A DNA stretch of 64,000 nt, from contig NZ_CP096884.1 in NCBI RefSeq assembly GCF_023273855.1, positions 496,001 to 560,000 of the forward strand, in the 5' to 3' direction. The DNA comes from Seonamhaeicola sp. ML3. Lineage in GTDB: Bacteria; Bacteroidota; Bacteroidia; Flavobacteriales; Flavobacteriaceae. This document shows, in pieces, positions 13,944-47,121 of the stretch. The notes below the pieces were generated by a model, which saw only the letters and a program-made list of their open reading frames with translations, did no database searches and was not told the DNA's origin. The translations under genes were made by a program, and so were the position numbers. The first letter of the stretch is position 1, and every line of letters begins with the position of its first letter.

Positions 13944-16796
13944 TTATTTACTCAAGTACATTTTACGTCTAGAGTATAGATCGTAAAACTCGTCGTCTTT
14001 TAAACTATCAATGAAAAGGATACTTTCTCCAGTACTCTTCATTTCTGGTCCTAATGTTTTATCTACATTCGGGAACTTGTTAAACGAAAACACTGGCTGC
14101 TTAATGGCGTAACCTTCCAATTGAGGATTGAAATTAAAATCCTTAACCTTTTTCTCTCCTAACATTAGTTTAGTTGCATAATTTACATAAGGTTCTCCAT
14201 AAGCCTTAGCGATAAACGGTACCGTTCTAGATGCTCTTGGGTTGGCCTCAATGATATAAACCACATCATCTTTAACCGCAAACTGAATGTTTATTAAACC
14301 TACAGTATTAAGCGCTAAAGCAATCTTCTTGGTATGGTCTTTTATCTGTTGCATTACAAACTCACCTAAGTTAAATGGAGGCAGTGTTGAATTACTATCA
14401 CCAGAGTGGATACCACAAGGTTCTATGTGCTCCATAATTCCGATGATATAAACTTCCTCACCATCACAAATAGCATCTGCTTCAGCCTCAATAGCTCCTT
14501 CTAAGTAGTGATCTAATAGTAATTTATTGTTTGGAATACTTTGTAATAAGCTAACAACGTGCTTTTCTAATTCCTTCTCATTAATTACAATCTTCATCCC
14601 TTGACCTCCTAATACATAAGATGGTCTTACCAAAATTGGAAAATCTAATTCCTTAGCTACTGCAAGGGCTTCATCGGCAGTTTCGGCAGTATCAAATTTA
14701 GGATAAGGAATGTTGTTCTCTTTTAACAGAGTAGAGAAACTTCCACGGTCTTCGGCTAAATCTAAAGAATCGAAGCTCGTACCAATAATTTTAACACCAT
14801 AGCGATCTAACTTTTCAGCAAGTTTCAAGGCAGTTTGACCACCTAACTGAACGATGACACCTTCTGGTTTTTCATGCTTAATGATGTCATAAATATGCTC
14901 CCAGAAAACTGGTTCGAAATATAATTTATCGGCTGTATCGAAATCTGTAGAAACTGTTTCAGGGTTACAGTTAATCATAATGGTCTCATAACCACACTCA
15001 GCAGCAGCTAAAACCCCATGTACACAACAGTAATCAAACTCAATTCCTTGGCCAATTCTATTTGGTCCAGAACCTAGTACAATAACTTTCTTTCTATCTG
15101 TTACTACACTTTCATTATCAGAATAACGCTTACCATCGGCAGTTTCCATTTCACTTTCAAAAGTTGAATAGTAATATGGTGTCTTGGCCTCAAATTCAGC
15201 CGCACAAGTATCAACTAGCTTGTAAACTCTGTTAATATTCAATTCTTCACGCTTACTATAAACCTGACTCTCTAAACACCCTAGCATATGCGCTATCTGG
15301 CGGTCTCCATAACCTTTCTGCTTAGCTTCAAGTAAAAGTGGTTTTTCAATGGTATCAATATTAAAGGTAGAAATTTCCTTTTCTAAGAAATATAGTTCTT
15401 CGTATTGCTTTAAGAACCACATGTCTATCTTAGTGATTTCATGGATTCTACTTAAAGGGATACCCATTTTAATAGCATCGTAAATAATGAATACACGATC
15501 CCAAGACGCAAATTTTAGCTTCTCAATAATTTGATCGTAATTAGTATTCTCCTTGCCGTCAGCCCCTAAACCATTACGTTTAATCTCGAGTGACTGTGTA
15601 GCTTTGTGCAATGCTTCTTGGAACGAACGTCCAATACCCATAACCTCACCTACAGCCTTCATTTGTAGTCCTAAAGTTCTATCTGAACCTTCAAACTTAT
15701 CGAAATTCCAACGTGGTATTTTTACAATAACGTAATCTAAAGTTGGTTCGAATAATGCCGAAGTCGATTTAGTAATCTGGTTGCTTAACTCATCTAAATG
15801 GTACCCCATAGCCAATTTAGCAGCAATTTTTGCAATAGGATACCCTGTTGCTTTACTTGCCAATGCCGAAGAACGTGATACACGTGGGTTAATTTCAATA
15901 GCGATAATCTCTTCTTGATCATCTGGACTAACTGCAAACTGAACGTTACAACCTCCAGCAAAATCACCAATACTACGCATCATATGGATAGCCATATCAC
16001 GCATTTTTTGATACGTTCTATCACTTAAAGTCATAGCTGGCGCTACCGTAATGGAATCTCCCGTGTGGATTCCCATGGGATCCATATTTTCAATAGAACA
16101 TATAATGACAACATTACCGTTAGAATCTCTTAATAACTCCAACTCATATTCTTTCCATCCAAGTAATGCTTTATCAATCATTACCTCATGGATAGGTGAT
16201 ATCTCAAGTCCGCGACGTAATAGCTTGTCAAAATCGGCTTCATCATAAACAATAGCCGCTCCTGCTCCACCTAAAGTAAACGAGGAACGAATACATAATG
16301 GAAAACCAAACTCTTGAGCTATCTCTTTACCTTTTAAGAAAGAGGTGGCCGTTGCCTGCGGTGCCATACCAACACCAATTTTGCCCATTAATTCTCTAAA
16401 CTGTTCTCTATCCTCGGTGATATTGATAGCATCGATATTTACACCGATAAGCTCTACTCCAAAATCCTCCCAAATACCTTTTTCATCAGCCTCGATTGCA
16501 AGGTTTAGCGCAGTTTGTCCTCCCATAGTAGGTAAAACCGCATCAATTTGTGGATGTTCTTTTAAAATCTTGACTATCGACTTTGTATTCAATGGCAACA
16601 AATACACATGATCGGCCATAGAAGGATCGGTCATTATCGTTGCTGGATTCGAATTAATTAAGATAGTTTCAATTCCATCTTCTCTTAAAGATCGTAATGC
16701 CTGTGAACCAGAATAATCGAACTCACACGCTTGTCCAATGATAATTGGACCCGAACCAATAATTAGTATAGATTTTAATTTAGGATTTTTTGGCAT
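13944..16796 (-). CDS. carB: Carbamoyl-phosphate synthase large subunit, lacking the C-terminal allosteric domain
   Basis: The 950-residue enzyme makes carbamoyl phosphate from bicarbonate, ammonia and two ATP for pyrimidines and arginine. Both ATP-grasp halves are present. The first begins with ILIIGSGPIIIGQACEFDYS and has SSFTLGGAGAA; the second begins with VIVLGSGPNRIGQGIEFDYC and has RPSYVLGGQGM and EANPRASRTVPF. The protein ends at ESILFIDSLKDDEFYDLYSRRKMYLSK, about 120 residues short of the E. coli enzyme (1073). The methylglyoxal-synthase-like domain that binds UMP, IMP and ornithine is therefore missing. This is usual among Flavobacteriia as far as I know and is not a truncation artefact, because a terminator follows. 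carA is not in the window. Confidence 0.96.
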   Translation of the reverse strand: MPKNPKLKSILIIGSGPIIIGQACEFDYSGSQALRSLREDGIETILINSNPATIMTDPSMADHVYLLPLNTKSIVKILKEHPQIDAVLPTMGGQTALNLAIEADEKGIWEDFGVELIGVNIDAINITEDREQFRELMGKIGVGMAPQATATSFLKGKEIAQEFGFPLCIRSSFTLGGAGAAIVYDEADFDKLLRRGLEISPIHEVMIDKALLGWKEYELELLRDSNGNVVIICSIENMDPMGIHTGDSITVAPAMTLSDRTYQKMRDMAIHMMRSIGDFAGGCNVQFAVSPDDQEEIIAIEINPRVSRSSALASKATGYPIAKIAAKLAMGYHLDELSNQITKSTSALFEPTLDYVIVKIPRWNFDKFEGSDRTLGLQMKAVGEVMGIGRSFQEALHKATQSLEIKRNGLGADGKENTNYDQIIEKLKFASWDRVFIIYDAIKMGIPLSRIHEITKIDMWFLKQYEELYFLEKEISTFNIDTIEKPLLLEAKQKGYGDRQIAHMLGCLESQVYSKREELNINRVYKLVDTCAAEFEAKTPYYYSTFESEMETADGKRYSDNESVVTDRKKVIVLGSGPNRIGQGIEFDYCCVHGVLAAAECGYETIMINCNPETVSTDFDTADKLYFEPVFWEHIYDIIKHEKPEGVIVQLGGQTALKLAEKLDRYGVKIIGTSFDSLDLAEDRGSFSTLLKENNIPYPKFDTAETADEALAVAKELDFPILVRPSYVLGGQGMKIVINEKELEKHVVSLLQSIPNNKLLLDHYLEGAIEAEADAICDGEEVYIIGIMEHIEPCGIHSGDSNSTLPPFNLGEFVMQQIKDHTKKIALALNTVGLINIQFAVKDDVVYIIEANPRASRTVPFIAKAYGEPYVNYATKLMLGEKKVKDFNFNPQLEGYAIKQPVFSFNKFPNVDKTLGPEMKSTGESILFIDSLKDDEFYDLYSRRKMYLSK

Positions 16797-17869: not shown

Positions 17870-17941
17870 TGTCATTCCGAACTTGTTTCGGAATCTAAAT
17901 AATTTTTGGTGAGATGAGGCTGAAACGGCTTCAGCATAACA
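17870..17941. repeat. Two-hairpin intergenic palindromic repeat (copy 1)
   Basis: The left unit (17870-17895) begins TGTCATTCCGAAC and ends GTTTCGGAATC, a hairpin. The right unit (about 17912-17941) reads GGCTGAAACGGCTTCAGCAT and then AACA, an inverted partner with a degraded TGACA end. The copy lies between converging genes. It belongs to the family also seen at 33748, 38494, 46506, 46656, 47006 and 47048. Confidence 0.75.
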
Positions 17942-33727: not shown

Positions 33728-33823
33728 AGAGATTGCCCTAGAACAACTGTCATTCTGAATTTATTTCAGAATCTGAAACAGTTCAGATTGACAAATGTGA
33801 CGCTTTAGGCAGTCTCTTTTTTT
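33728..33823 (+). terminator. Terminator hairpin with a palindromic repeat inserted in its loop
   Basis: AGAGATTGCC (33728-33737) pairs with GGCAGTCTCT (33808-33817) with one wobble and is followed by a T-run. Between the arms, instead of a short loop, sits an intergenic repeat (33748-33793). The outer stem fits a terminator for the CpxP-like gene and, on the other strand, for the BNR lipoprotein gene. Confidence 0.65.
33748..33793. repeat. Two-hairpin intergenic palindromic repeat (copy 2)
   Basis: The left unit begins TGTCATTCTGAATTTA and ends TTTCAGAATC. It runs directly into CTGAAACAGTTCAGATTGACA, so the two hairpins are fused without spacer and the ends are TGTCA and TGACA. It lies inside the loop of the hairpin at 33728-33823. 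Confidence 0.8.
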
Positions 33824-38345: not shown

Positions 38346-38572
38346 TGTCATTCTGATTGCCCGTGCTGAGCGGATTCGAAGCAAACGTAAGAATCTGTTT
38401 AATGAGGTGACCAATATTATTCAGGCTTGTTCTAAAACAACGAGATTGTCACGTCGCTACACTCCTCACAATGACGGCGTGCTTGTTTGGTTTTGTCAAC
38501 CTGAACTCGTTTCAGGTTCTCACAATAATTAATAATTGAAATTTGAGATTCTGAAACAAGTTCAGAATGACA
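38346..38572. repeat. Composite intergenic repeat block
   Basis: The gap 38335-38609 holds no gene but several repeat pieces. At 38346 TGTCATTCTGATTGCC leads into GTGCTGAGCGGATTCGAAGC. At 38441-38476 lies ACGAGATTGTCACGTCGC followed by CTCACAATGACGG, a different unit. At 38494-38520 is TGTCAACCTGAACTCG...TTTCAGGTTCT. At 38545-38572 is ATTCTGAAACAAGTTCAGAATGACA. The last two form a two-hairpin TGTCA/TGACA element like the copies at 46506 and 47048. Confidence 0.75.
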
Positions 38573-45800: not shown

Positions 45801-46497
45801 AATGGCTAACGCTATGTACTTAGCTGGATTTGACGTGAAAGATGTTCATATGACCGACTTAATTTCTGGTCGTGAAACCTTAGAAGACATTCAGTTCTTA
45901 GGTGCTGTTGGTGGGTTCTCAAATTCGGACGTTTTAGGTTCTGCCAAAGGATGGGCAGGCGCTATTAAATACAATGAAAAAGCAAGACAAGTCATTAGAA
46001 ATTTCTTTGACAGGGAGGACACCCTTTCTGTTGGAATCTGTAATGGATGTCAACTTTGGATGGAATTAGACCTCATCAATCCAGACCATGAGATTCATGG
46101 TAAAATGCGCCATAATGATTCTCATAAACACGAAAGTTCATTTACTTCGGTTAAGATCCAAGAGAACAATTCGGTGATGTTATCGTCATTAGCTGGAAGC
46201 ACTTTAGGTGTTTGGATTTCGCATGGAGAAGGAAAGTTCAATTTACCATATGCTGAAGACCAATATCATATTGTTGCTAAATATGGTTATGAAGGTTATC
46301 CTCATAACCCTAATGGTTCGGACTTTAACACGGCAATGATGTGTGATAAGACTGGACGTCATTTAGTGACCATGCCGCACATAGAGCGTTCTACGTTCCA
46401 ATGGAACTGGGCTAACTATCCCGACGGACGTAAAGACGAAGTGTCTCCATGGTTAGAGGCTTTTGTGAATGCTAGAAAGTGGGTTGAGAAGCATTAA
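42826..46497 (+). CDS. purL: Phosphoribosylformylglycinamidine synthase (large, single-chain)
   Basis: The 1223-residue enzyme performs step four of purine synthesis. In order: N-terminal domain; first AIRS-like half (SEHCRHKIFNGTF, LKAETHNFPTTVEPFNGAATGSGG); second half (VPTGKDSLSMKQKY, AGHDVASGGLITTLLELCF); and a C-terminal glutaminase domain starting RPKAAILREKGSNSEREMA. The glutaminase has nucleophile GICNGCQLW and catalytic MPHIERS. The segment just before the glutaminase, residues about 966-975 (DVIQSDSEES), is encoded by a palindromic-repeat sequence inserted in frame. The rest is typical, so the enzyme is probably active. Confidence 0.96.
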   Translation: MIHFFGNTSGKVFAVQSSEELSTEIISKLTWLFGNQPKIEQASLDAFFVGPRAAMITPWSTNAVEITQNMGITGIIRIEEFQAVSDDFKDYDPMISEKFNGLNQESFTIDIEPEPILDIKDIAAYNIQEGLSLSDEEVAYLEGVSKKIGRPLTDSEVFGFSQVNSEHCRHKIFNGTFVIDGEEKPTSLFKLIRKTSEEHPNDIVSAYKDNVAFIQGPVVEQFAPKRADVPDYYTTQDFESVISLKAETHNFPTTVEPFNGAATGSGGEIRDRLAGGKGSLPLAGTAVYMTSYSRLEENRPWEKAFEERNWLYQTPMDILIKASNGASDFGNKFGQPLICGSVLTFEHEEEAQKLGFDKVIMLAGGIGYGKKDQALKDTPKTGDKIVILGGENYRIGMGGAAVSSADTGEFASGIELNAVQRSNPEMQKRAANAVRGMVESDENFIVSIHDHGAGGHLNCLSELVEDTGGKIDLDALPVGDPTLSDKEIIGNESQERMGLVISEEHIDTLNKIADRERSPMYTVGDVTGDDRFTFQSKTKGNTPMDLAMEDMFGSSPKTIMTDKTVKRNYADVSYNSDDFYNYLDQVLQLEAVACKDWLTNKVDRCVGGKVAKQQCVGPLQIPLNNVGVMALDFRGKEGIATSIGHSPVSALIDPVAGSRNSITESLTNIIWAPLKDGLKNVSLSANWMWPCKNEGEDARLYEAVQAVSEFSIDLGINVPTGKDSLSMKQKYPNGDVISPGTVIISAGANCNDINKVVEPVLKKNGGDIYYINISQDDFKLGGSSFAQIVNKIGNEAPTVKDAGYLKTVFNTIQDLIRDEQIVAGHDVASGGLITTLLELCFADTNIGAELDLSDLNEKDSLKLLFSENAGIVIQSKDSSIEKVLSDANITFSKIGSVTESDNLSIINGTDVFTMTISRLRDVWYKTSFLLDQKQTANGLAEERYNNFKNQPLQYTFPENFTGKLADVIQSDSEESRPKAAILREKGSNSEREMANAMYLAGFDVKDVHMTDLISGRETLEDIQFLGAVGGFSNSDVLGSAKGWAGAIKYNEKARQVIRNFFDREDTLSVGICNGCQLWMELDLINPDHEIHGKMRHNDSHKHESSFTSVKIQENNSVMLSSLAGSTLGVWISHGEGKFNLPYAEDQYHIVAKYGYEGYPHNPNGSDFNTAMMCDKTGRHLVTMPHIERSTFQWNWANYPDGRKDEVSPWLEAFVNARKWVEKH
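45723..45749 (+). repeat. Intergenic-type palindromic repeat inserted in frame in purL
   Basis: The 27 bases begin TGTCATTCAGAGCGATAG and end CGAAGAATC, sharing TGTCATTC and GAATC ends and length with the intergenic family. They encode part of residues 966-975 in the linker between the synthase and glutaminase domains. In E. coli PurL the linker has no comparable serine/acid patch. Confidence 0.7.
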
Positions 46498-46505
46498 GCA
46501 AACCT

Positions 46506-46640
46506 TGTCATTCCGAACTTGTTTCGGAATCTCATAAACGTAACTTATCACCCTATCCCAATAGCTGTCAGAGTATTTTGGGGTCTAAAGATATTTATAG
46601 TTAGGATGCCATTAGATGCTGAAACAAGTTCAGCATGACA
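46506..46640. repeat. Two-hairpin palindromic element (copy 6)
   Basis: The left hairpin begins TGTCATTCCGAACTTG and ends TTTCGGAATC (46506-46531). The right hairpin, about 46614-46640, reads GATGCTGAAACAAGTTCAGC and ends ATGACA. About 80 bases without coding potential separate them. Left and right stems differ in sequence yet each pairs with itself. Confidence 0.8.
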
Positions 46641-46655
46641 CAAATCTGAAGGACT

Positions 46656-47033
46656 TGTCACCCTGAACTTGTTTCAGGGTCTACTCCCAAAGGCTTCCAA
46701 AGATTGTCCCAATTTGGATTAATACTTTCAATCAAATTGATTTTCCATTCCCTATGCCAATTCTTTAATTGCTTTTCTCGTCTAATAGCATCTTCAATAA
46801 ATTGAAACTCTTCATAGTAAACGAGCTTTTTAAGTTTATACTTTGCAGAAAATGATTTTTCTTTTCCTTCGATATGCCTTTCCATTCTGTCATCCAGCCC
46901 TCCGGTGACACCAATATATAAAACGCCTTTTGGTTTATTAGTGATAATATAAACCCAATAGTTGTGATAAGCTCGTTTAGGTATGTTGTTTACTTTTAAT
47001 TAACTAGGATACCGAAACAAGTTCGGCATGACA
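46656..47033. repeat. Palindromic element enclosing the GIY-YIG gene
   Basis: Left hairpin at 46656-46682 (TGTCACCCTGAACTTG...TTTCAGGGTC) and right hairpin at about 47007-47033 (ACCGAAACAAGTTCGGCATG then ACA). The ends are again TGTCA and TGACA. Where neighbouring copies have a short spacer, this one holds a GIY-YIG nuclease gene on the minus strand. Confidence 0.75.
46658..46984 (-). CDS. GIY-YIG nuclease-like protein, start codon unusual or decayed
   Basis: Read from 46984 the frame gives 108 residues with the GIY-YIG core: YWVYIITNKPKGVLYIGVTG, then LDDRMERHIEGK, KYKLKKLVYYEEFQFIEDAI and RREKQLKNWHREWKINLIE. It is close in length to single-domain UvrC-like nucleases. No ATG, GTG or TTG lies upstream of the core; the frame is closed by TAA at about 46997. 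ATA at 46982-46984 sits where homologues would start (xPKRAYHNYW). The next ATG (46885) would remove the catalytic half. The last codons (DPETSSG) and the TGA come from the flanking repeat. Either ATA is used or the gene is newly inactivated. Confidence 0.65.
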   Translation of the reverse strand: MPKRAYHNYWVYIITNKPKGVLYIGVTGGLDDRMERHIEGKEKSFSAKYKLKKLVYYEEFQFIEDAIRREKQLKNWHREWKINLIESINPNWDNLWKPLGVDPETSSG

Positions 47034-47047
47034 AAACCGATGTGAAT

Positions 47048-47121
47048 TGTCAATCTGAATTTATTTCAGATTCTAATAAACAACTTAATTTAACAGATGC
47101 TGAAACTAGTTCAGCATGACA
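47048..47121. repeat. Two-hairpin palindromic element (copy 8)
   Basis: Left hairpin TGTCAATCTGAATTTA...TTTCAGATTC (47048-47073), right hairpin GATGCTGAAACTAGTTCAGC ending ATGACA (about 47095-47121). It is the third consecutive TGTCA/TGACA element in the gap between purL and the OFA transporter. Confidence 0.8.

Follow-up and report, generated by a model that had tools for sequence, protein, structure and literature searches.

Genes for single-domain GIY-YIG nucleases, above all those with a C-terminal REKxLKxWxRxWK...NPxWxDL signature, are probably dedicated partners of REP hairpins that carry a YGTC tag, gene and hairpins together forming one mobile system. The window considered here, by which we mean the whole stretch of 64,000 nucleotides that was analysed, covers positions 496001-560000 of the single 3.47-Mb contig of Seonamhaeicola sp. 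ML3 and contains one such gene between two such hairpins. The partnership of nuclease and hairpin and its specificity appear well supported by sequence comparisons across genomes; for the GIY-YIG nuclease itself we infer cleavage, a cleavage site and mobilisation in trans. With less assurance, we incline to the wider view of a class of mobile DNA in many bacterial phyla, in which a structure-specific, Slx1-like GIY-YIG nuclease would take the transposase's place, recognise tagged single-strand hairpins, mobilise units that contain the gene as well as the swarms of REP dimers that do not, and diversify into many mutually specific nuclease-hairpin pairs within a genome; this nuclease would then be the enzyme that has long been missing for the CGTC REPs. 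The hairpins are already known, and what appears new is their link to a nuclease, which would make this a REPIN-like system with another enzyme.

Hairpin units and the GIY-YIG gene in the window

Three consecutive units, at 46506-46640, 46656-47033 and 47048-47121, lie downstream of a long open reading frame that ends at 46497 and that we take to be purL. Each starts with TGTC, an 8-bp stem, a 5-nt loop and the returning stem, and ends with an inverted copy of the same, both tags pointing outward; the unit coordinates and the three hairpin elements given in the original prediction hold on rechecking of the sequence. The first and third units are gene-less dimers of 135 bp and 74 bp, and the middle one, on the minus strand, consists of a TGTC hairpin, a GIY-YIG gene and a second TGTC hairpin, with the tags facing outward. 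Its left hairpin (46656-46680, plus strand; TGTCACCCTGAACTTGTTTCAGGGT) and its right hairpin (47009-47033, minus strand; TGTCATGCCGAACTTGTTTCGGTAT), which lies upstream of the gene and has one stem mismatch, are related rather than identical, matching at 18 of 21 positions. The gene occupies 46658-46984 on the minus strand, with 108 codons plus TGA if read from an ATA, and it ends inside the left hairpin: the reverse complement of 46656-46681 reads GAC CCT GAA ACA AGT TCA GGG TGA, which bears out the earlier claim that the complement of this hairpin encodes the terminal DPETSSG and the TGA stop. The window also holds a gene-less dimer of 79 bp (38494-38572), a dimer whose second hairpin is degenerate (17870-17941) and a compact dimer in which an intact hairpin overlaps a degenerate second one, the latter read by eye (33748-33793).

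The encoded protein matches PF01541 (GIY-YIG) at 58 bits against the Pfam cut-off of 22.6 (E 1.2e-15). Particular residues of GIY-YIG nucleases have a catalytic role, and the family's conserved Y, Y, R, H and E columns are all present. In an AlphaFold2 model the mean pLDDT is 83.3, with residues 100-108 (the DPETSSG tail) falling below 50, which is what one would expect of a tail that arose merely through the overlap with the hairpin. The solved fold nearest to the predicted model is UPF0213 (E 2.6e-4), followed by a weak match to Slx1 with branched DNA (E 0.012, TM 0.57, rmsd 5.7). The curated homing endonuclease model TIGR01453 was not reached (21.7 bits against a cut-off of 56.05), and neither NCBIfam nor PHROGs yielded a specific family for the protein.

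No ATG, GTG or TTG precedes the GIY-YIG domain in the gene's open frame, the first ATG being codon 39, within the catalytic domain. At the place of the window's ATA (46984-46982, minus strand), five sub-clade relatives have ATG (L062, L106, L225, L230 and L231) and two have TTG (L107 and L229). Lacking a standard start codon, the window gene may use a rare start or may be a silent copy; on the same basis, the window's own copy may be unexpressed and the system in this genome may be decaying.

Hairpins across the window genome

The sequence TGTCAHNCYGAAYTYRTTTCRG, with up to two mismatches, has 62 matches in the 3.47-Mb genome and none in a reversed control, which rules out a chance palindrome. 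Neighbouring hairpins less than 500 bp apart form 16 pairs in +/- orientation, with tags outward, none in +/+ or -/- orientation and two in -/+ orientation, both of these being the gaps that separate the window's three adjacent units. Just one of the 16 outward units, at 378 bp, is long enough for a gene, and the remaining units measure 58-135 bp.

We compared 34 unique hairpins from those loci of this genome that were fetched. The fraction of Watson-Crick pairs is 0.978 against 0.805 (maximum 0.853) with the 3' arms shuffled, a value favoured by a scan that took only hairpins with at least six of eight pairs and AA/TT at pairs 7-8. Pairs 2, 3 and 5 vary through compensatory substitutions. The first and fourth loop positions, which were unfiltered, pair in all 34 hairpins (25 C-G and 9 T-A; shuffled mean 20.7, maximum 28). 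From the compensatory stem changes and the pairing within the loop, it is the folded strand that seems to be conserved, and pairing in the hairpin appears to be under constraint. The scan itself fixed the stem at 8 bp and the loop at 5 nt and accepted only CGTC or TGTC as a tag; within these settings the tag is TGTC in 34 of 34, pair 1 is A-T in 32 and pair 2 is A/T in 28. The tail is CT in 31 of the 34, not CCA, and a TCCA tail is frequent at GIY-YIG loci of other genomes.

GIY-YIG matches number nine in this genome, six of them single-domain frames (L001-L006), and the window's gene clade is represented by one gene. In a test for matching inverted repeats around a gene, with a main threshold score of at least 16, the frames L002, L003, L005 and L006 reach 16 with differing hairpin types; for L006 the caveat on the window's gene unit applies, whose score of 21 comes from pairing its right end with the hairpin of the next dimer. 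L001 and L004 fall below 16, L004 lying among other palindromes, GTCATTCTGAG.

Tagged hairpins around GIY-YIG genes in other genomes

A sample from 60 genomes of the family, made up of 60 regions in addition to the loci of the window genome and of the first family search, comprised single-domain frames, taken as the best matches by E-value from a longer list, with some genes at contig edges skipped and duplicates and two untestable genes removed, leaving 103 genes. Matching inverted-repeat flanks occur at 23 of these genes with a score of at least 16 and at 41 with a score of at least 14, against 0 and 1 for 315 other open reading frames of the same loci and 0 and 1 for 284 random intervals. 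When flanks were swapped between family GIY-YIG genes (n=613), 10 reached 16 and 17 reached 14; counts above zero are to be expected wherever members of a clade have the same type of hairpin. For a second sample at least 573 relatives were confirmed, of which 80 were kept and 77 were testable, mostly from other phyla; here 50 of 77 genes reach 16, compared with 7 of 718 other open reading frames and 0 of 264 random intervals. Of those seven control frames, two turned out to be additional GIY-YIG genes; the others are a transposase-like frame or have no evident explanation. The idea that GIY-YIG genes elsewhere are flanked by matching tagged hairpins, put forward from the window, is upheld at 23 of 103 and 50 of 77 genes. 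The pairing is general in that both frequencies lie well above the controls; against it, 80 of the 103 family genes (many of other clades, such as the EKYLK type, in which 0 of 22 family genes reach 16) and 27 of the 77 genes from other genomes score below the threshold.

Record labels among the loci reaching 16, many of them from metagenome assemblies, include Alpha-, Beta-, Gamma- and Deltaproteobacteria, Bacteroidetes, Scalindua, Omnitrophota, Atribacteria and Patescibacteria; the Myxococcota and Dehalococcoidales loci and the two from Ignavibacteria did not reach it. On plasmid records, 8 of 15 loci examined, from 34 matches, lie between near-identical CGTC/TGTC hairpins, including loci of Azospirillum, Novosphingobium and Sphingobium, and a ninth (L130) has an imperfect pair. 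L131 and L141 have other palindromes nearby and low scores, and a hairpin pair is absent at L133, L136 and L143 (broken gene). Because the L129 frame extends beyond the point where these frames normally stop, the test of its downstream flank fell at a wrong position.

Tagged hairpins stand on both sides, facing outward, at 15 of the 103 family genes and 35 of the 77 genes from other genomes, and three altered tags gave 0 or 1. Typing of the 73 pairs scoring at least 16 gave 39 that are tagged and outward, 3 inward and 31 left untyped by a strict rule. When the 39 outward pairs are aligned at the tag, the identity of the two flanks is 0.18-0.49 outside and 0.9-1.0 from the first tag base: shared sequence starts abruptly there, and the element boundary is the hairpin tag.

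Hairpin type, protein type and copy number

Comparing each gene's hairpin with that of its closest protein from a different genome gives a similarity of 0.632, against 0.304 under permutation (maximum 0.379 of 2000; 107 genes). For family genes that have a paralog, hairpins are more similar across genomes than between paralogs of the same genome in 37 of 40 cases. These comparisons make it well supported that hairpin type tracks protein clade and not genome, as the original prediction of matching stem subtypes would have it. Flank matching, at a score of at least 13, also clusters on the protein tree, requiring 36 changes where none of 200 shuffles needed fewer than 49; sub-family groups on this tree were defined by rough motifs.

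The window's hairpin (A-type) occurs in 70 of 149 family genomes, and its reversed control once in all 149; a second hairpin type, TTTCCGCG, was also counted in these genomes. The gene clade was labelled by LKNW[HKR], a motif chosen after the loci had been seen, and some of its copies have early stops. In a search in which matches under about 96 bits were read in part, the clade was found in 27 genomes, all 27 of which have at least three A-type hairpins (median 15). The median in the other 122 is 0, with 79 having none and 27 having at least three (highest 96); the difference gives a Mann-Whitney p of 1.5e-13, a value without correction for phylogeny. Twenty further matches read from the 122 did not carry the clade motif. 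The expected dependence of copy number on the gene holds in one direction, since every genome with the gene has three or more hairpins, but not in the other, since 27 of 122 without it do as well. Gene presence implies hairpins and hairpins can outlive the gene, which is the pattern expected of dependants. The highest count, 96, belongs to G064, where the search turned up no gene of the matching nuclease clade. On two contigs of G128 (C14 and C15) hairpins that all point the same way follow one another at regular spacings of about 139 and 163 bp, in contrast to the outward dimers seen as a rule.

The earlier analogy with REP sequences and RAYTs, with a different nuclease fold, and the accompanying idea that the nuclease recognises the hairpins both gain support, since the flank check, with hairpin type following protein type, and the copy-number check came out favourably; that the nuclease would also cut, spread or maintain the hairpins is a proposal.

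Turnover of the elements

Presence and absence of the elements were seen between species and between strains. At the purL site, seven genomes of the genus read by eye indicate turnover without sharp edges: G153, a congener, carries two dimers without a gene, a second genome keeps a single remnant, a third shows just a degenerate trace, and in three the site is bare. The Azospirillum lipoferum gene, bordered by a full dimer on either side, separates sufB from sufC; the other five Azospirillum records read, of eleven listed, have no such gene there. Sinorhizobium meliloti strain 1021 has a dimer that is missing in strain LMB1, the two being about 95% identical at this locus. At one pSymB site, S. 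meliloti GR4 and Rm41 (L285 and L286, about 15097-15390) have some 290 bp more than strain 1021. The edges of the element-free Azospirillum and Sinorhizobium sites are too diverged for a target duplication to be shown, and a clean empty site with such a duplication was found at none of the purL, Azospirillum suf and Sinorhizobium pSymB sites. Among 30 of 58 records, none carried both flanks of the Rhizobium CIAT894 gene while lacking the gene.

A possible mechanism and its alternatives

In the mobile system that we favour, a complete unit would be a YGTC hairpin, the gene and an inverted YGTC hairpin, and the gene-less head-to-head dimers would be non-autonomous copies, related to it as REPINs are to RAYTs. 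The hairpin would be extruded on the lagging-strand template or as a cruciform, and the nuclease would recognise tag plus stem and incise at the tag, that is, at the element boundary; host replication and repair would then copy or re-insert the released or nicked unit. We assign the copying to the host because the GIY-YIG active site hydrolyses DNA and, to our knowledge, is not known to join strands.

GIY-YIG homing endonucleases likewise carry their nuclease domain on a small, apparently mobile unit, and the gene could be a homing-type parasite that targets REP dimers and lodges in their spacers, the REPs spreading by other means. The similarity to homing endonuclease models, though weak and below the TIGR01453 cut-off, would fit this, as would the purL site of G153, where two gene-less dimers stand in place of the window's dimer, gene unit and dimer, and the A. 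lipoferum gene with its full dimer on either side. A homing gene should invade many empty targets, however, and just one of the 16 dimers in the window genome has the gene; hairpins accompany the clade in all 27 genomes, and the boundary of the element is the hairpin tag itself, the ends of the unit being hairpins as those of homing endonuclease units are not. We therefore regard homing as unlikely.

Alternatively, the pair could be domesticated and immobile, the nuclease removing or resolving extruded REP hairpins or cruciforms in the manner of Slx1 or SbcCD and being kept near its substrate. Slx1 is among the nearest folds, pairing in the hairpins appears constrained and the window genome has one gene of the clade, all of which agree with housekeeping. 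The site of the gene varies, however, one Azospirillum species having it between sufB and sufC and five other Azospirillum records lacking it there, hairpins persist in number without the gene, and clade copies L244, L245, L248 and L266 have early stops, so that we consider this improbable.

It is very improbable that we are dealing with ordinary elements of transcription or of mRNA that came to lie at the ends of the gene by chance: the stop lies within a tagged hairpin or at most 20 bases from one in many of the genes that have such a hairpin, but matching ends are rare for other open reading frames at the same loci, the copies on the two sides of a gene agree with one another and break off sharply at the tag, and hairpin sequence tracks protein clade. 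A simple terminator role is rejected on the flank-test controls and the sharp boundary. Least probable of all is mobilisation by a RAYT or another transposase of the IS200/IS605 type with the GIY-YIG gene as passenger, which we reject: REP dimers do resemble REPINs, and GTAG REPs are thought to move through such transposases, but 34 of 60 family genomes, the window's included, have no Y1_Tnp match, none of 26 testable Y1_Tnp loci (of 30; the frame used was the longest one across the midpoint, which is not proven to be Y1 in every case) has YGTC hairpins on both sides and one has a single weak hairpin, and Di Nocera et al. likewise report no associated transposase (PMC3733652). Seven of the 26 loci (L295, L299, L300, L305, L308, L309 and L317; PF01797) have inverted repeats of their own, scoring at least 16 (19-28) and without YGTC tags.

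Relation to known repeats and nucleases

The proposed system shares several features with known repeats. In REP/RAYT and REPIN systems, as here, one gene-bearing copy lies between the same hairpins and several types occur per genome. Paired inverted hairpins and many short non-autonomous copies are also common to both (PMC2817692, PMC3116915). Unlike them, the system described here has a GIY-YIG nuclease (PF01541) in place of an HUH/Y1 transposase, for which the window genome has no PF01797 match, and its tag is YGTC (TGTC in the window), not GTAG. UPF0213 (YhbQ-like) proteins and Slx1, which acts on branched DNA (6seh), are nearest by sequence profile and by fold; here, unlike in these, there is a clade-specific C-terminal signature and there are tagged hairpin flanks.

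The closest match for the hairpins is the CGTC REP superfamily (Di Nocera, De Gregorio and Rocco, 2013; PMC3733652), which includes Neisseria dRS3 and Rickettsia RPE-4/6, has been reported from five phyla, with occurrences in Bacteroidetes and Alphaproteobacteria, and 'apparently lack[s] a dedicated transposase'. That paper describes an unpaired YGTC (or CCTC) tag at one end, an 8-9 bp stem with A/T at its first two pairs, a 4-5 nt loop and a predominance of head-to-head dimers, all as found here, and tails that mostly, not always, fit CCA; here, by contrast, a nuclease gene lies inside the unit and the tail in the window genome is CT. Its hosts of CGTC REPs include Azospirillum lipoferum, S. 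meliloti and N. aromaticivorans, and all three have GIY-YIG genes, with an imperfect hairpin pair in S. meliloti. The window's hairpins fit the CGTC REP superfamily, and we propose that GIY-YIG nucleases supply its missing partner, as RAYTs do for GTAG REPs. The term 'GIY-YIG' has 0 occurrences in the text of PMC3733652, a 2025 REP survey (PMC12306157) has no words beginning with GIY, nuclease, transposase or RAYT, and we found no published link between CGTC REPs and GIY-YIG genes in the open-access literature.

A specific and conserved nuclease partner turns the question of the missing transposase into a direct bench test. If the proposal is right, it adds a class of enzyme other than transposases to REP biology and provides many nuclease-hairpin pairs in which specificity can be compared. 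It also suggests a role for many genes annotated merely as 'GIY-YIG nuclease family protein', with at least 573 relatives.

Stop codons within hairpins and other GIY-YIG subfamilies

Overlap of a stop codon with a hairpin, expected from the window as a feature of such genes' 3' ends, recurs elsewhere but in a minority, at 10 of 180 genes, one or more of those hairpins possibly being due to chance; it is rejected as a defining rule. A TGA stop formed by the complement of the hairpin tag (TGACA/TGACG), with the hairpin encoding the C-terminus, is seen in the window (46656-46660) and in L062, L162, L195, L207, L210 and L217, and at L106 and L219 the stop is a TGA in the hairpin stem, as read by eye.

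GIY-YIG subfamilies marked by EKYLKS..RPRGA and WKSRKMIE (L059, L063, L087 and L102) occur as tandem copies and have no tagged hairpins, and a subfamily ending in NLAKKKF or similar (L066, L071, L078, L082 and L100) lies near another repeat, TTCTCGATACAA, which is untagged. In L219, a metagenome-assembled genome labelled Sphingobium, the gene lies at 486-797 between hairpins of the window's type (CGTCATGCTGAACTTGTTTCAGCATCCAT, 29/29), which suggests either transfer between phyla or a mis-binned contig.
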